Source of the DNA: Vicingus serpentipes
GTDB taxonomy: Bacteria; Bacteroidota; Bacteroidia; Flavobacteriales_E; Vicingaceae
DNA: 64,000 nucleotides
Direction: 5' to 3'
Assembly: GCF_007993035.1 (NCBI RefSeq)
Contig: NZ_VOOS01000001.1
Span: 124,001-188,000, forward strand
In this document: positions 47,026-53,652 of the stretch, piece after piece
How the letters are laid out: every line of letters starts with the position of its first letter
How positions within the stretch are numbered: position 1 is the stretch's first letter
Translations under genes and position numbers: made by a program
The notes under the pieces: model-generated
The model's input: only the letters and a program-made list of their open reading frames with translations
What the model was told of the DNA's origin: nothing
The model's database searches: none

Positions 47026-47793
47026 ATGAAATTAAATTTAATACTTGGGAGCTGTTTATTACTTGCTTTATTCTCCTGTTCAAAAGAAGAAGGTGAAGGG
47101 GGGAGATCTTCTATTTCTGGAACACTTGAAGGAATTATAGTTGACAATGCAAGAACTGAAGTAAATGAAGTTATTTGTGTAACTCAAGATGATATAAAAA
47201 CAGGAGATTACTGGTTTTTAAATTCTCCTGATTCTTACGATGATTATTGTATTTGGTATAACAATATTAATGCTCCTGTTTCGGCTCCTTTGATCTCTTC
47301 AAGAACTGCTGTAAAAGTTGACTATAGCTCACTTGCTGGTGATAATAATATTACAATTGCAACAAAAACTGAAGCTGCTTTAAATGCTATTACTGGTTTA
47401 CCATTTAGTATTGTCAGAAATAATGATAAGCTAACAATTACAAATAAATTTACTGGAGATGTTAGTGATTCGGACAACGGAACCTCTAAAATGATTGTAG
47501 ATGTTATCACTCAAGGAAGAGATCAAATAATTTTACAAAGTGGAGTAATTGCAAATGAAGATGTTTTTATTATTTATGGAGATGATGATGACATTCAAGA
47601 TGATGATGTAAAATCAAACTTTGATGGCACTTTTAAGTTTAAAAACTTAAGAAAGGGCTCTTACAGAATTTTTGCTTACAGTGAAGATCCTTCACTTCCT
47701 AACCCTCTTGTTCCAGTTACTAAATCTATCGATATTGGAAAAAATGAAGATGCTAATATTGGTTCAATTTCAATAGAATTAAAAGATAATTAA
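47026..47793 (+). CDS. Surface-type lipoprotein heading VTC/DUF4956 operon
   Basis: About 255 residues with a lipoprotein signal (LALFSC, Cys18), and SKEEG after the Cys resembles the Bacteroidota surface-export signal. Residues about 60-150 resemble a repeat I remember from phage-tail and extracellular proteins: YWFLNSPDSYDDYCIWYNN, then TKTEAALNAI and KLTITNKFTG. An Asp-rich loop (GDDDDIQDDD) that may bind calcium follows. The C-terminal about 60 residues (FDGTFKFKNLRKGSYRIFAYSED) resemble a carboxypeptidase-regulatory-like beta-sandwich. I prefer the ATG at 47026 to the GTG two codons earlier. Function is unknown. It precedes the VTC gene by 15 bases. Confidence 0.75.
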   Translation: MKLNLILGSCLLLALFSCSKEEGEGGRSSISGTLEGIIVDNARTEVNEVICVTQDDIKTGDYWFLNSPDSYDDYCIWYNNINAPVSAPLISSRTAVKVDYSSLAGDNNITIATKTEAALNAITGLPFSIVRNNDKLTITNKFTGDVSDSDNGTSKMIVDVITQGRDQIILQSGVIANEDVFIIYGDDDDIQDDDVKSNFDGTFKFKNLRKGSYRIFAYSEDPSLPNPLVPVTKSIDIGKNEDANIGSISIELKDN

Positions 47794-47808
47794 TTCTACC
47801 AGCTAATT

Positions 47809-48567
47809 ATGAGTGAATTGGATAATGTATTAAAACTGTTTGACCCTATTTCTTTAAAAGAAATGGATAGAGTTAAATTACTCAATAGAGTTGACACAAA
47901 ATATGTATTCGATATTTCTACTTTAATAAAAGTATTACCTGAAATTAGCACCTATTATTTTATTTTAGAAATAGATGGTAAACGAACTAACAGCTACCAA
48001 ACTTTATACTTCGATACGGCAAATTTTGATTCTTATATTCAACATCAAAATGGAAAATTAAATAGAACCAAAATAAGGTTTAGAAAATATATTGAGTCTG
48101 ATTTAAATTTCTTAGAAATAAAATTTAAAAATAATAAAGAACGAACTATTAAAAACCGTATAAAAGCTGCCGACATTGAAACAGTTCTATCGACTGAATC
48201 AAGTAATTTTATTAATGAAAACTCAAAACTAAATCCAAATGAATTGAGTGCTTCATTATGGAATAGTTTCACTCGTATAACACTAACTCATAAAACAATA
48301 AACGAAAGACTTACTATAGATTTAAATCTTGGATTTAAAAACAATAAAACACAAGAGGAAACAAGTATTCCTCACATTGTAATTGCCGAATTAAAACAAG
48401 GAAAAGCAAATGTAGGTTCTGACTTTGTGAAAATCATAAAAAAACAACATGTTAGACCAATGGGAATGAGTAAGTATTGTATTGGTACCGCATTACTTAA
48501 CAAACAATTAAAATCAAATAATTTTAAAGAACGAATATTAAAAATTAATAAATTAAAACATGCTTAA
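47809..48567 (+). CDS. VTC-domain polyphosphate polymerase-like protein
   Basis: The 252-residue cytoplasmic protein matches the VTC domain, the tunnel-shaped catalytic domain of yeast Vtc4. Key segments are LLNRVDTKYVF at the start, YQTLYFDT, the basic strand TKIRFRKY, FLEIKFK with the metal-binding Glu, and the closing MSKYCIGTAL. The basic residues lining the tunnel are present, so polyphosphate synthesis from nucleotide triphosphate is possible. SPX and membrane domains of the yeast enzyme are absent; the membrane part is probably supplied by the next gene, which overlaps by 8 bases. Confidence 0.88.
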   Translation: MSELDNVLKLFDPISLKEMDRVKLLNRVDTKYVFDISTLIKVLPEISTYYFILEIDGKRTNSYQTLYFDTANFDSYIQHQNGKLNRTKIRFRKYIESDLNFLEIKFKNNKERTIKNRIKAADIETVLSTESSNFINENSKLNPNELSASLWNSFTRITLTHKTINERLTIDLNLGFKNNKTQEETSIPHIVIAELKQGKANVGSDFVKIIKKQHVRPMGMSKYCIGTALLNKQLKSNNFKERILKINKLKHA

Positions 48568-49240
48568 CGACTTACTTTTAAAAATTCCAATTTTAGGTTC
48601 AAAACTATGGGATGTAAATGATTTTGGAGAACTAATTATTCGATTTGTTTTCGACTTTATAGTAGCTTTTATTTTGATAAGAGTTATCTATTATCCTACA
48701 CATAGAAGAAAAGATTATTTATTTACCTTCTTTTTGTTCAATATTTTAATTTTCTTCATATGTATATTACTTAGTAGTGTTAAATTAAAACTTGGTTTTG
48801 CTTTTGGTTTATTTGCTATTTTTGGTATCCTCAGATATAGAACCGAGCAGCTTCCAATTAAGGAAATGACCTATTTATTTATGATTATTGCAATTGCAAT
48901 AATTAATTCTTTAACAGACAATAAAATAACACTATCGGAAGTACTTTTTACCAACTTTACAATTGTTTTTGCGACTTACTTACTCGAAAAAGTTTTTCTA
49001 CTTAAGCATGAATCTCGAAAAATCATTAACTATGAAAAGATTGAGAACATAAAACCTGAAAACCACCCTATTCTTATTGATGATTTAAAAGAAAGAACTG
49101 GATTAAAAATTCATAGAGTTCAAATTGGAAAAGTTGATTTTTTAAGAGATACAGCTCAACTTAGAGTATTTTATTTTGAAGATGATTCAGATTCCAATTA
49201 TGACGAGTCTACTCCAACTGTAAGTAATTTTAATGAATAG
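48560..49240 (+). CDS. DUF4956 membrane protein
   Basis: The 226-residue protein has about four to five transmembrane helices (between residues 25 and 145) and the family hallmark FGLFAIFGILRYRTEQLPIKEM between helices. A C-terminal cytoplasmic domain of about 75 residues follows. DUF4956 proteins are frequently encoded next to VTC-domain proteins, as here, and may form the membrane channel or anchor for polyphosphate. It overlaps both neighbours by 8 bases, which indicates tight stoichiometric translation. Confidence 0.88.
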   Translation: MLNDLLLKIPILGSKLWDVNDFGELIIRFVFDFIVAFILIRVIYYPTHRRKDYLFTFFLFNILIFFICILLSSVKLKLGFAFGLFAIFGILRYRTEQLPIKEMTYLFMIIAIAIINSLTDNKITLSEVLFTNFTIVFATYLLEKVFLLKHESRKIINYEKIENIKPENHPILIDDLKERTGLKIHRVQIGKVDFLRDTAQLRVFYFEDDSDSNYDESTPTVSNFNE

Positions 49241-49871
49241 AATTCTATTCATATTATTTTTCATCTCGCCATGCCTCGTTTTTTCCCAAGTTTTAAGCGA
49301 TGCTAAGTTATGGACAGGAATTTCTGTCTCAAAAAAAATAAACGATTTTAATTTTTCTATAAGTGAAGAATATCGTCGTTCAGAGAACTTATCTCAAACA
49401 GATAAAATATTTACTGAATTTGATATTAGTTATAAGGTAATCAAAAATTTAACTGCTGGTATTACTTATCGTTTTAACCAAGATCGAAACTTCGAACAAG
49501 GTGGTTTTGACTTTAACCATCGATTTAATTTTGATTTGGGTTATGATTATGATTTTAATGATTTTGAATTTTCTCTTAGAACAAGATATCAAGTTAGTAA
49601 AGAAATTTACTCTTCAGATAAGCTTAATCGAAATAAGTTAGCCATTAAATATAAACTTAACAAACAAATTCACCCTTACATCTCTTATGAATTATTCTAT
49701 CAGTTTAATGATATAAGAGCTTTTAATAGAGATAGAATTGAGATGGGAACAAAATATAAAATTAACAAAAACAACAGCTTAAAATTGGGCTATATCTTTG
49801 AAGACAAGTTTAACCGTAAAAACTTAGAGCACAATCATATTTACTTTATTAATTACAGTATAGAAATTTAA
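49233..49871 (+). CDS. DUF2490-type outer-membrane beta-barrel
   Basis: The 212-residue protein has a signal peptide ending LVFSQ. Its repetitive amphipathic strands have aromatic girdles (SISEEYRRSENL, GITYRFNQDRNF, LGYIFEDKF). These match the small DUF2490 barrel family. Unlike most barrels it ends in YSIEI rather than Phe. As the last gene of the VTC operon it could carry the product or a signal across the outer membrane; this is inferred from gene order only. Confidence 0.8.
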   Translation: MNRILFILFFISPCLVFSQVLSDAKLWTGISVSKKINDFNFSISEEYRRSENLSQTDKIFTEFDISYKVIKNLTAGITYRFNQDRNFEQGGFDFNHRFNFDLGYDYDFNDFEFSLRTRYQVSKEIYSSDKLNRNKLAIKYKLNKQIHPYISYELFYQFNDIRAFNRDRIEMGTKYKINKNNSLKLGYIFEDKFNRKNLEHNHIYFINYSIEI

Positions 49872-49891: not shown

Positions 49892-49899
49892 TATATTTG
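49892..49899 (+). promoter_or_regulatory. -7 promoter element (TATATTTG) of PASTA gene
   Basis: TATATTTG fits TAnnTTTG, 30 bases before the ATG at 49930. No terminator is visible after the DUF2490 gene. Confidence 0.5.
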
Positions 49900-49929
49900 C
49901 TTCTCGTTAATATTCTGCAAACTATACTA

Positions 49930-50751
49930 ATGTTAAAATTTATATTCAGTAAAACTTTTTTAATTAACCTATTAATTATATTAACAGTAATTACAATTGC
50001 TATTTGGGGTATTTTCAAATACTTAGACAGTTATACTTTAAATAGTCAAACAATTAGTGTACCTTCATTAGAAGGACTCACCATTACTGAAGTTGAAGAA
50101 ATTTTAACTGAAAAAAAATTAAGATATCAAATTCTAGATTCTATATATGTAGAGAATAATGAACGAGGTATTGTGCTTGAGCAACAACCAGCTACCGATG
50201 ATTTGGTTAAAGAAAATAGAACCATCTACATCACAATGTCTAAAATTATTCCTCCTAAAATGAGTATGCCAGATATTGTAGACATGAGTTTGAGAGTTGC
50301 TGCGGCAAAAATAGAGAGCTATGGCCTAAAAGTAGGTAAGCTAAGTTATTTCCCTTCAGAGTGTGTTAATTGTGTACTTGAAGTAAAAATTAAAAATGTA
50401 GTGATTAAATCTGGTCAAGAAATTGAAAAGGGGGCTGTTGTTGATTTAGTTTTAGGGAGTGGAACAAGCTCAGAAAAAGTATTTGCTCCATATTTGATTG
50501 GACTTTCAAAAGAAGATGCATCTCAAAAAATACAAGCTTCTTTTTTAAACATTGGTGCTGAAATTTACACTGATTGTTCTACAAAAGAAGATTCAATTTC
50601 AGCAAAAGTTTACAAACAATCTCCACAAAGAAGTGAAAATATTACAGTAAATATGGGTAGCCCTATTGATTTATGGTTTACTTGTGATACGTCAAAAATC
50701 AAAATTTCTGTAGTTGACTCTTTAAACGTAAATTTACTGAATGAAGAATAA
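49930..50751 (+). CDS. Membrane-anchored PASTA-domain protein
   Basis: About 273 residues: one N-terminal transmembrane helix (about residues 9-29) followed by three PASTA repeats (about 40-115, 115-185 and 185-260). The repeats are marked by VPSLEGLTITEVEEIL, MPDIVDMSLRVAAAKI and APYLIGLSKEDASQKI. PASTA domains bind peptidoglycan fragments and usually sit on Ser/Thr kinases or PBPs, but no kinase domain is present. An in-frame TTG at 49897 is rejected because the promoter overlaps it. It overlaps the next gene by 11 bases. Confidence 0.88.
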   Translation: MLKFIFSKTFLINLLIILTVITIAIWGIFKYLDSYTLNSQTISVPSLEGLTITEVEEILTEKKLRYQILDSIYVENNERGIVLEQQPATDDLVKENRTIYITMSKIIPPKMSMPDIVDMSLRVAAAKIESYGLKVGKLSYFPSECVNCVLEVKIKNVVIKSGQEIEKGAVVDLVLGSGTSSEKVFAPYLIGLSKEDASQKIQASFLNIGAEIYTDCSTKEDSISAKVYKQSPQRSENITVNMGSPIDLWFTCDTSKIKISVVDSLNVNLLNEE

Positions 50752-52606
50752 TATTTTATACATAATTATATTCATACTTACACCATTTTTTGTTTTTTCA
50801 CAAAAAGACACCCTATTAGAATTAGGTGTAAATAAAAAAATTATAAACGAAAGGTTTAAGGAAGCTAATAATGAAGTTTCTTTATTAAGAAAAAAAAATA
50901 ATTCATCATCATACAAAAAAGCAAGTTCATTGCCTTTTTTTGATGACTTCTCTCAACAAGAATATTATCCTGACGCTTCTAAATGGATGGACAATGCTGT
51001 TTATATTAATTCAAACTATGCTGTTAATCCAATTTCATATGGAGTTGCTACTTTTGATGGTTTAGACTCAACAGGATACCCATATAACTTTATTAATTCT
51101 ACTGCTCAAGGTGTTGCAGATTATCTCACTTCAAAACCAATTGATTTAACAACTCCTACAGACAGTGTCTATTTAAGTTTTTTCTACCAACCGCAGGGTA
51201 TAGGAAATAAACCTGAAACATCTGATAGTTTAAAAGTTGAATTTTTTCGTTTATCAGATAGCACATGGGTAAGAAAATGGGCTGCCGGTGGTTCTGCTCT
51301 TCAACCATTTAAGCAAGTAATGATTGCAGTTGACACTTCGTTTCATAAAGCAAATTTTCAATTTAGATTTAAAAATTATGCTACACTTTCTGGAAATGTT
51401 GATCATTGGAATGTTGACTATGTGTATTTAAATGACAATAGAAATTATTTAGATACAACTATAAATGATGTTGCTTTAACTGGAAATTTCTACAACTTTT
51501 TAAATGAATACACTCGAATGCCTTGGCAACATTATATTATTGATACAATTGGATTTATGGCTTCAGCTATAGATGTAGCATATAGAAATAATACCAGTTC
51601 ACCATTTGGTGTTTTTTATAGATATAATGTAATATCTGATAATGGAAGTGGTTCATTAATTGAGGATTATCCTCCTCCTGGTTCCAATAAAAATGTTTTT
51701 CCTTATTCTACTTTAATTGAACCGCAAGCAGTATATGATCTAGGAACAAATGATTTTAGCTTCCCATTTGATGCAGCAGCTACATCAAAAGTATTTCAAG
51801 TTAAAAATTACTTTAATTTAGGTGGTCTACCCGACGACCATCAAGAAAATGATACAGTTGTAAGTTATCAAGTATTTGGAAATGATTATGCCTATGATGA
51901 TGGAAGCGCCGAAGTTGGTTATGGAGTTCAAGGAATAGGATCAAAATTAGCTCATCAATTTAGCATTAAAAAAAGCGACACATTAACTTCTTTGAAAATG
52001 TATTTTAGCCCTATAACCAACAATATGAGTGCTAAAACCTTTAAACTGACCATTTGGAGTAATCTATCTCCAGAAACAGTTATTTACCAACAAAATGCTT
52101 ACTACTCACCTATTTATTCTAATACTAATGAATTTTTAGAATATCTTTTAGATGCTCCTCTATACCTTCCTGCTGGAACTTATTATGTTGGCTATGAGAA
52201 AATATCTGAAGATTTTTTAAATTTAGGTTGGGATTTAAATACAAACAATAGCAATAAAGTATTTTTTAATGCTGTTGGTATATGGCAAAATGCAACTGTA
52301 AATGGTTCTTTAATGGTACGACCTGTATTTGGAGCTTATCCAGATCCAGTAATTAGTATTAAAGAACATAATAACTACTTAAATGATATAAACATCTACC
52401 CTAATCCTACTTCTAGTAATTTATATTTCAAAGCAAACACTCCTTATACTATAGACATAACAGATATGTATGGTAAGTTAATTGAGAGTTATACTGAATC
52501 TACTAATAAAATTATAGATGTATCTTTCTTAAAGAATGGTATATATCTATTTAAGTTTAGTAATAACAAATCTTCTATTACCAAGAAGATAATCATTTCA
52601 AAATAA
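50741..52606 (+). CDS. T9SS type A cargo protein
   Basis: The 621-residue protein has a signal peptide ending FFVFSQ. A lectin- or jelly-roll-like region follows (FDDFSQQEYYPDASKW...VYLSFFYQPQG). A second beta-rich region contains AYDDGSAEVGYGVQ and TFKLTIWSN. The C-terminal sorting domain spans about 550-621 (INIYPNPTSSNLYF ... LKNGIYLFKFSNN ... KKIIISK). It is exported across the outer membrane by T9SS. Its enzymatic or binding role is unknown. It overlaps the PASTA gene by 11 bases and precedes rluD by 8. Confidence 0.88.
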   Translation: MKNNILYIIIFILTPFFVFSQKDTLLELGVNKKIINERFKEANNEVSLLRKKNNSSSYKKASSLPFFDDFSQQEYYPDASKWMDNAVYINSNYAVNPISYGVATFDGLDSTGYPYNFINSTAQGVADYLTSKPIDLTTPTDSVYLSFFYQPQGIGNKPETSDSLKVEFFRLSDSTWVRKWAAGGSALQPFKQVMIAVDTSFHKANFQFRFKNYATLSGNVDHWNVDYVYLNDNRNYLDTTINDVALTGNFYNFLNEYTRMPWQHYIIDTIGFMASAIDVAYRNNTSSPFGVFYRYNVISDNGSGSLIEDYPPPGSNKNVFPYSTLIEPQAVYDLGTNDFSFPFDAAATSKVFQVKNYFNLGGLPDDHQENDTVVSYQVFGNDYAYDDGSAEVGYGVQGIGSKLAHQFSIKKSDTLTSLKMYFSPITNNMSAKTFKLTIWSNLSPETVIYQQNAYYSPIYSNTNEFLEYLLDAPLYLPAGTYYVGYEKISEDFLNLGWDLNTNNSNKVFFNAVGIWQNATVNGSLMVRPVFGAYPDPVISIKEHNNYLNDINIYPNPTSSNLYFKANTPYTIDITDMYGKLIESYTESTNKIIDVSFLKNGIYLFKFSNNKSSITKKIIISK

Positions 52607-52614
52607 AAATATAA

Positions 52615-53652
52615 GTGCAAGAGCATATAGAAGACGATCATTTAGAAGAAGAGCAAGAACTCTTTGAACACTATAACTTTATAGCTGATAAAGGACAAGA
52701 ATTTGTTAGAATTGACAAGTTTTTAATGGATAGGATACCTAATACATCAAGAAGTAAAATCCAAACTGCAGCATCCTCTGGCACCATTTTAGTAAATACT
52801 AAAGTTGTTAAGTCTAATTATAAAGTAAAACCTTTTGATGAAATTTCTATTGTTTTACCTTATCCACCTAGAGTTTTAGAACTAATACCTGAAAATATTC
52901 CTATCAACATTGTATATGAAGATAAAGACGTTTTAGTACTTAATAAACAAGCCGACATGGTGGTTCATCCTGGTTATGGAAACTATACAGGAACACTTGT
53001 AAATGCTTTAATTTATCATTTTGATAATTTACCTGATAATACTTTAAACAATAGGCCTGGGTTAGTTCATCGCTTAGATAAAAATACAACTGGTATAATG
53101 GTAATTGCTAAGACAGAACATGCAATGAACCACTTATCAAATCAATTTTTTGAACGAACTACAGAAAGGAGATATAATGCAATTGTTTGGGGAGATTTTG
53201 AAGATGATGAAGGAACTGTAATTGGAAATGTTGGTAGAAGTTTAAAAAACAGAAAAGTAATGAATGTGTTTCCAGATGGAGATTTTGGAAAACATGCAGT
53301 AACTCATTACAAAGTTCTAAAAAGATTCGGTTATGTAACTTTAATTGAATGTAAATTAGAAACAGGAAGAACGCACCAAATACGAGTTCACATGAAACAT
53401 ATCGGGCATACGCTATTTAATGATTATGAGTATGGTGGTGATAGCATATTAAAAGGAACCTCATTTGCTAAATACAAACAGTTTATCAATAATTGTTTTG
53501 AAATATTGCCTAGACAAGCCTTACATGCTAAATCATTAGGATTTACACACCCAACAAGTGGAGAATGGATGCAATTTGACTCTGAATTACCTGACGATAT
53601 GAAAATGGTGTTAAGTAAATGGGAGACTTACGTTGCAAATAGAGAAGAATAA
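52615..53652 (+). CDS. rluD: RluD-family 23S rRNA pseudouridine synthase
   Basis: A 345-residue protein starting at GTG, with an N-terminal acidic stretch, an S4 RNA-binding domain (RIDKFLMDRIPNTSRSKIQ, about 30-85) and the RluA-family catalytic domain. The latter contains the HRLDKNTTGIMV motif with catalytic Asp, and GRTHQIRVHM. It should isomerise uridines of 23S rRNA helix 69. It is the third gene of the PASTA-T9SS cargo unit, and its stop touches the stop of the convergent SPOR gene with no gap. Confidence 0.92.
   Translation: MQEHIEDDHLEEEQELFEHYNFIADKGQEFVRIDKFLMDRIPNTSRSKIQTAASSGTILVNTKVVKSNYKVKPFDEISIVLPYPPRVLELIPENIPINIVYEDKDVLVLNKQADMVVHPGYGNYTGTLVNALIYHFDNLPDNTLNNRPGLVHRLDKNTTGIMVIAKTEHAMNHLSNQFFERTTERRYNAIVWGDFEDDEGTVIGNVGRSLKNRKVMNVFPDGDFGKHAVTHYKVLKRFGYVTLIECKLETGRTHQIRVHMKHIGHTLFNDYEYGGDSILKGTSFAKYKQFINNCFEILPRQALHAKSLGFTHPTSGEWMQFDSELPDDMKMVLSKWETYVANREE

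Follow-up and report, generated by a model that had tools for sequence, protein, structure and literature searches.

The locus raises the question of whether a four-gene operon of Vicingus serpentipes, built around a VTC-type polyphosphate polymerase domain and encoding candidate partners for the membrane and the cell surface, makes polyphosphate and passes it to the cell envelope. The operon lies within a 64,000-nucleotide stretch of DNA, the whole of which is referred to below as the window. Open reading frame calls, with Pfam matches for three of the genes and a lipobox for the fourth, bear out the families and gene order proposed in an earlier note, together with the 15-base spacing between the lipoprotein and VTC genes and the overlaps of 8 bases each between VTC and DUF4956 and between DUF4956 and DUF2490 (Table 1). 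The Pfam scores of these last three proteins all exceed the curated cut-offs, and an alternative GTG start is located six bases 5' of the lipoprotein ATG. A promoter scan yielded hits no more numerous than those in shuffled sequence. Beyond the operon, positions 49897-53652 contain genes for a PASTA-like protein, a 621-aa secreted protein and a pseudouridine-synthase-like protein, in an order shared with a relative locus (L116).

Table 1. Genes of the VTC operon in the window.
Feature	Position	Strand	Description
Lipoprotein gene	47026-47793	+	255 aa, lipobox LFSC with Cys20; first gene of the operon; ATG start
VTC-domain protein gene	47809-48567	+	252 aa; PF09359 (1.9e-26); triphosphate-tunnel fold, putative cytosolic polyphosphate polymerase
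DUF4956 gene	48560-49240	+	226 aa; PF16316 (1.8e-58); putative inner-membrane partner of VTC
DUF2490 outer-membrane beta-barrel gene	49233-49871	+	212 aa; PF10677 (2.6e-23); conserved arginines

A VTC homologue was identified in 135 of the 295 genomes of the class, corresponding to 71 of 156 genera. The loci surveyed comprised about 80 around VTC homologues and about 80 named contigs found via DUF4956, two sets that may overlap, and same-strand genes were counted at the 117 Bacteroidota loci with at least 4.5 kb of sequence upstream and at least 2 kb downstream. VTC was present at 112 of these loci, the lipoprotein at 63, DUF2490 at 73, a repeat protein of about 190 aa at 46 and a CotH gene at 43; for the class set alone (63 loci), the corresponding counts were 62, 43, 45, 32 and 32. 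VTC and DUF4956 adjoin on one strand, their ends mostly overlapping, in 76 of 81 loci (window included), and they constitute a near-obligate pair, which stands alone among the tracked families at 27 of the 117 loci. The order LIPO-(YD)-VTC-DUF4956-DUF2490 recurs in dozens of genera and, given this recurrence and the adjacency of VTC and DUF4956, the gene arrangement is far beyond what chance could account for. The earlier note had allowed for the lipoprotein and barrel not being conserved with the VTC-DUF4956 pair; the frequencies given above identify both as common partners of it. The four-gene device proposed in that note is sound as to its parts, all of which are real and linked, but it is no one-off: the window holds a reduced form of an operon that is common in Bacteroidota and in which genes for a CotH kinase and the repeat protein are often found as well, neither of them being present at the window locus. 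The operon as a whole is widespread and conserved, with a confident VTC-type core.

Several other proteins are encoded at the relative loci. The gene for the secreted repeat protein (L035:4426-4992, for example) lies between the lipoprotein and VTC genes at many of the loci that have it, and the one such protein tested gave no Pfam match. The lipoprotein gene is often preceded by that for a type IX secreted protein of about 545 aa, with no family assigned (L038:6782-8428, L073:2939-4579 and similar). At one locus (L044:6270-7100), a 277-aa CYTH (tunnel-fold) protein with a signal-like N-terminus, a second tunnel enzyme and one that is probably exported, is encoded directly upstream in the VTC operon; it was considered as a recurrent part of the operon and rejected, as none was seen at the other loci.

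The VTC protein matches PF09359 with a score of 93.5 bits, against a cut-off of 23, and its AF2 model, for which 58 sequences from the window and the loci were used, reaches a mean pLDDT of 95.8. The best solved match to this model is Vtc4 with AppNHp (3g3r; VIA Z 18.0, 212 residues aligned, 3.0 A), and Vtc4 structures are also the top Foldseek matches (2e-13). Yeast Vtc2 is almost level with Vtc4 (Z 17.6), the remaining tunnel enzymes scoring from Z 15.5 downward; as Vtc2 shares the fold and matches nearly as well, the fold alone is no proof of catalysis. The profile alignment to Vtc4, in which positions of the latter were derived by a count along the chain that starts from the residue range of the structure match, pairs R27 with R196, K31 with K200, R90 with R264, R92 with R266, K105 with K281, K115 with K294 and R156 with R361. 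All seven residues are invariant in the 58-sequence Bacteroidota alignment, and six relatives belonging to Deinococcota, Alphaproteobacteria and Streptomyces keep them too, except for K31 in Streptomyces; in a seventh relative, from Nonomuraea, the N-terminal positions are absent from the reading frame used for the comparison. For the C-terminal half of the protein, sequence alignment to Vtc4 gave unrelated matches only, but E194 and K222 are invariant, lie at the positions expected for Vtc4 E426 and K458, and are probably their counterparts. Mutation of R264, R266 and E426 has been used to impair yeast VTC (PMC9911596). The comparison with yeast Vtc4 suggested in the earlier note thus finds the mapped tunnel Lys/Arg residues kept, with no loss as far as the proteins can be aligned. 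Taken with the Vtc4-like fold, this conservation makes it likely that the VTC protein is catalytic, and polyphosphate synthesis is its likely activity. A literature search found no published enzyme activity for these bacterial VTC proteins, and no published biochemical function for bacterial VTC or DUF4956 proteins.

Triphosphatases or cyclases are common among tunnel-fold relatives, and the VTC protein might instead hydrolyse or transfer phosphate on a small substrate (a nucleotide or tripolyphosphate), with DUF4956 acting as an ACT-like membrane sensor, such that a phosphate or energy signal would reach the envelope with no polymer export. In the Foldseek comparison, however, the VTC polymerases are the nearest solved relatives and rank far ahead of the remaining tunnel enzymes. 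The AF2 model of DUF4956 (mean pLDDT 85.8) contains helices at residues 19-48, 52-73, 78-94, 100-117 and 125-145, followed by a C-terminal beta-alpha-beta-beta domain (151-206) with weak ACT-like matches, and the Streptococcus intermedius homologue has been described as an MgtC-like membrane part with an ACT domain (PMC12345266), both of which would suit a sensor. The MgtC relationship suggested in that study gained no support here: PF02308 did not appear among the Pfam matches listed for 54 members, and profile comparison gave a probability of 1.8%. No sequence match to solved structures was obtained for DUF4956, nor any Foldseek match under 0.001; the best VIA Z value was 5.6, mainly over the small C-terminal domain, and this absence of a match proves nothing. 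A signalling role would also leave the frequent barrel and lipoprotein unexplained, and we regard it as unlikely, while still deserving serious attention. Within DUF4956, R28 (97%) and R41 (91%) are conserved in Bacteroidota and lie in the first membrane helix, and R94 is present in all the relatives compared from other phyla. The basic residues of the first helix resemble the basic TM1 residues that line the yeast VTC channel (PMC9911596), a resemblance that is suggestive only.

The genome content bears on the fate of the product. The window genome (99.89% complete) had no match to Ppk1, Ppk2 or Ppx/GppA, and VTC is its sole recognised polyphosphate synthase, if VTC makes polyphosphate. As there is no recognised Ppx/GppA exopolyphosphatase inside the cell to reclaim the polymer, its use outside the cytosol would be favoured, and the pure phosphate storage entertained in the earlier note is a poorer fit. 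An ordinary intracellular store, with VTC in place of Ppk1 and the barrel and lipoprotein as hitchhikers, would agree with the lack of a Ppk1 match here and in 35 of the 135 VTC genomes, but the other 100 do have Ppk1, and the store could not be recovered by Ppx/GppA in the window genome. Moreover, cytosolic granules need no fixed membrane partner, and the lipoprotein and barrel hold their position across dozens of genera. Such a store is, in our estimation, very unlikely.

Cys20 of the lipoprotein is 98% conserved in the family alignment, which also contains a GxGG motif and a conserved C-terminal motif; no Pfam family scored above its cut-off, the C-terminal third being weakly prealbumin-like (SpaA 0.0011, below cut-off). 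The family has a median length of 138 aa (126 aa in the near relative L116), against 255 aa in the window, the window protein holding an insert of about 120 aa between the GxGG and C-terminal motifs. As a family, DUF2490 is general in the class, occurring in 227 of 291 genomes, and its conserved arginines (R48, R97, R116, R118, R133 and R168) were set aside as operon-specific evidence because most are family-wide. Only R80, present in 88% of the operon subfamily versus 0% of other DUF2490s, and Q120, which replaces a Glu invariant in those others, are specific, in a contrast that may be exaggerated by the use of the best Pfam scorers as the comparison set. These two substitutions render the operon barrel more cationic, and the spacing of R116, R118 and Q120 would suit one strand face, presumably on the lumenal side.

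The best single reading of these data, which we hold tentatively and at a little short of an even chance, is that polyphosphate is synthesised in the cytosol and exported into the envelope by a process coupled to DUF4956. The VTC protein would make polyphosphate from nucleotide triphosphate in the cytosol, like the tunnel domain of yeast Vtc4, and DUF4956 would anchor it at the membrane and move the growing anionic chain across, taking the part of the transmembrane helices of yeast VTC; the coupled synthesis and translocation of yeast provide a precedent (PMC9911596). Polyphosphate as the product, DUF4956 as the translocator and export itself are what we infer from this combination. At the outer membrane of the Gram-negative Bacteroidota, the chain could then be managed by the lipoprotein together with the cationic DUF2490 barrel, although this route and the role of the lipoprotein are speculative. 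The product would serve the envelope or cell surface, with secreted kinases of the CotH type as its most frequent associated users. Several observations weigh against polymer export: DUF2490 is general and its arginines mostly family-wide, some loci hold only VTC and DUF4956 among the tracked families, and in S. intermedius deletion of the VTC homologue had no reported effect on aggregation, whereas deletions of DUF4956 and CotH changed it (PMC12345266).

The most useful new result, overlooked in the earlier note, is the association of VTC with CotH. CotH was present in 130 of the 135 genomes with VTC and in 40 of the 160 without it. Within families, the Mantel-Haenszel odds ratio was 15 (chi-square 39; 27 families holding both kinds, 286 genomes placed), and relatedness accounts for only part of the co-occurrence. 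Ppk1 had no comparable association with VTC (odds ratio 0.53), and the link to CotH is therefore not caused by genome completeness. The count of CotH loci was the same with a single-subfamily profile and with a broader one. The operon CotH proteins match the structure of Bacillus cereus-type CotH (5jd9; 3.8e-42), with conserved Asp residues aligned, and often terminate in a type IX secretion tail; when CotH is absent from its usual slot before the lipoprotein, another type IX-tailed secreted protein may occupy it. Of the four CotH genes in the window genome, two have type IX signals, and none adjoins the VTC-DUF4956 pair or lies near the operon; both VTC and CotH are missing from another genome of the genus. 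Exported polyphosphate could be the phosphate donor for extracytoplasmic CotH kinases, where ATP is scarce, which would explain why VTC genomes nearly always have CotH and CotH also occurs alone. We consider this specific proposal a long shot, but the co-occurrence makes it directly testable and, if it were true, surface and type IX secreted proteins would be phosphorylated without exported ATP.

The VTC-DUF4956 pairing extends to Deinococcota, Alphaproteobacteria and Actinomycetota, and was seen in every intact plasmid case. On Deinococcus plasmids, the pair follows CotH once and once lies beside phosphate genes (HAD acid phosphatase and phn-type transporter). Plasmids of Aminobacter, Shinella and Nitratireductor carry it with a phytase-like gene, that of Nitratireductor also with an inorganic phosphate transporter, and the alphaproteobacterial pairs have no annotated CotH alongside; Streptomyces and Nonomuraea plasmids carry the pair too. 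On a Pseudoalteromonas plasmid (L242:5956-6267), the VTC gene is reduced to its 3' part, which lies ahead of an intact DUF4956 gene and a gene for a porin.

Genes for CotH, a polyphosphate polymerase and DUF4956 adjoin the Pel loci of Gram-positive bacteria (PMC7112168), and in S. intermedius deleting either the DUF4956 homologue or that of CotH alters Pel level and aggregation, with no change in either reported for the VTC homologue (PMC12345266). These findings would fit a trio accessory to the production of a surface polymer or adhesin, tuning or modifying secreted material through phosphorylation by CotH, with polyphosphate incidental, as would the frequent type IX secreted protein, CotH or other, in the Bacteroidota slot before the lipoprotein. 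No glycan synthesis genes, however, stood out among the recurrent Bacteroidota neighbours, and the alphaproteobacterial pairs lie beside phosphate genes rather than an annotated CotH. We judge such an accessory role improbable. The three-gene arrangement is reportedly not found outside the Pel locus (PMC12345266); it is present in Deinococcus and many Bacteroidota, with no Pel genes seen in the stretches examined. The system is not wholly undescribed, as the earlier note had supposed, since the CotH-VTC-DUF4956 trio is already published for Gram-positive Pel loci (PMC7112168, PMC12345266).

Returning to synthesis coupled to export, three known systems may be compared with the window operon. 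The Pel accessory genes of streptococci, clostridia and bifidobacteria (SIR_1594-1592 in S. intermedius) include the same VTC and DUF4956 gene types and a secreted CotH-domain protein, but they sit beside Pel genes, which are not recurrent near the Bacteroidota operon, and their Gram-positive hosts have no outer membrane and hence no DUF2490 or outer-membrane lipoprotein; in the window genome, moreover, the CotH genes lie away from the operon. The NELoc-2 locus of Clostridium perfringens (CP4_0460-0465) encodes VTC, "tubulin/FtsZ", VTC, "tubulin/FtsZ" and CotH (PMC2879425), and resembles the operon in combining VTC with a membrane protein of 222-226 aa and CotH; its "tubulin/FtsZ" genes (CP4_0461 and CP4_0464) probably encode putative DUF4956 proteins, to judge from size, localisation and position. 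It differs in being Gram-positive, in having two copies and in being split by a resolvase gene. The yeast VTC complex (Vtc1/Vtc3/Vtc4) shares with the window system the tunnel fold, the tunnel Lys/Arg residues of Vtc4 where alignable and a dedicated membrane partner, R28 and R41 of DUF4956 recalling K24/R31 of Vtc1. Unlike the yeast polymerase subunit, the window protein consists of the VTC domain alone, with neither an SPX sensor nor fused membrane helices, and the bacterial membrane part is a separate protein, without support for a relationship to the yeast helices, that is predicted to lie in the inner membrane and has outer-membrane partners. The window system may work like VTC, yet it is no VTC complex. 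If the pair does make and export polyphosphate, it would be the minimal equivalent, in bacteria, of the VTC machine of yeast; it would also give bacteria a second route to polyphosphate alongside Ppk, and would be a candidate source of energy or phosphate for kinases outside the cell.
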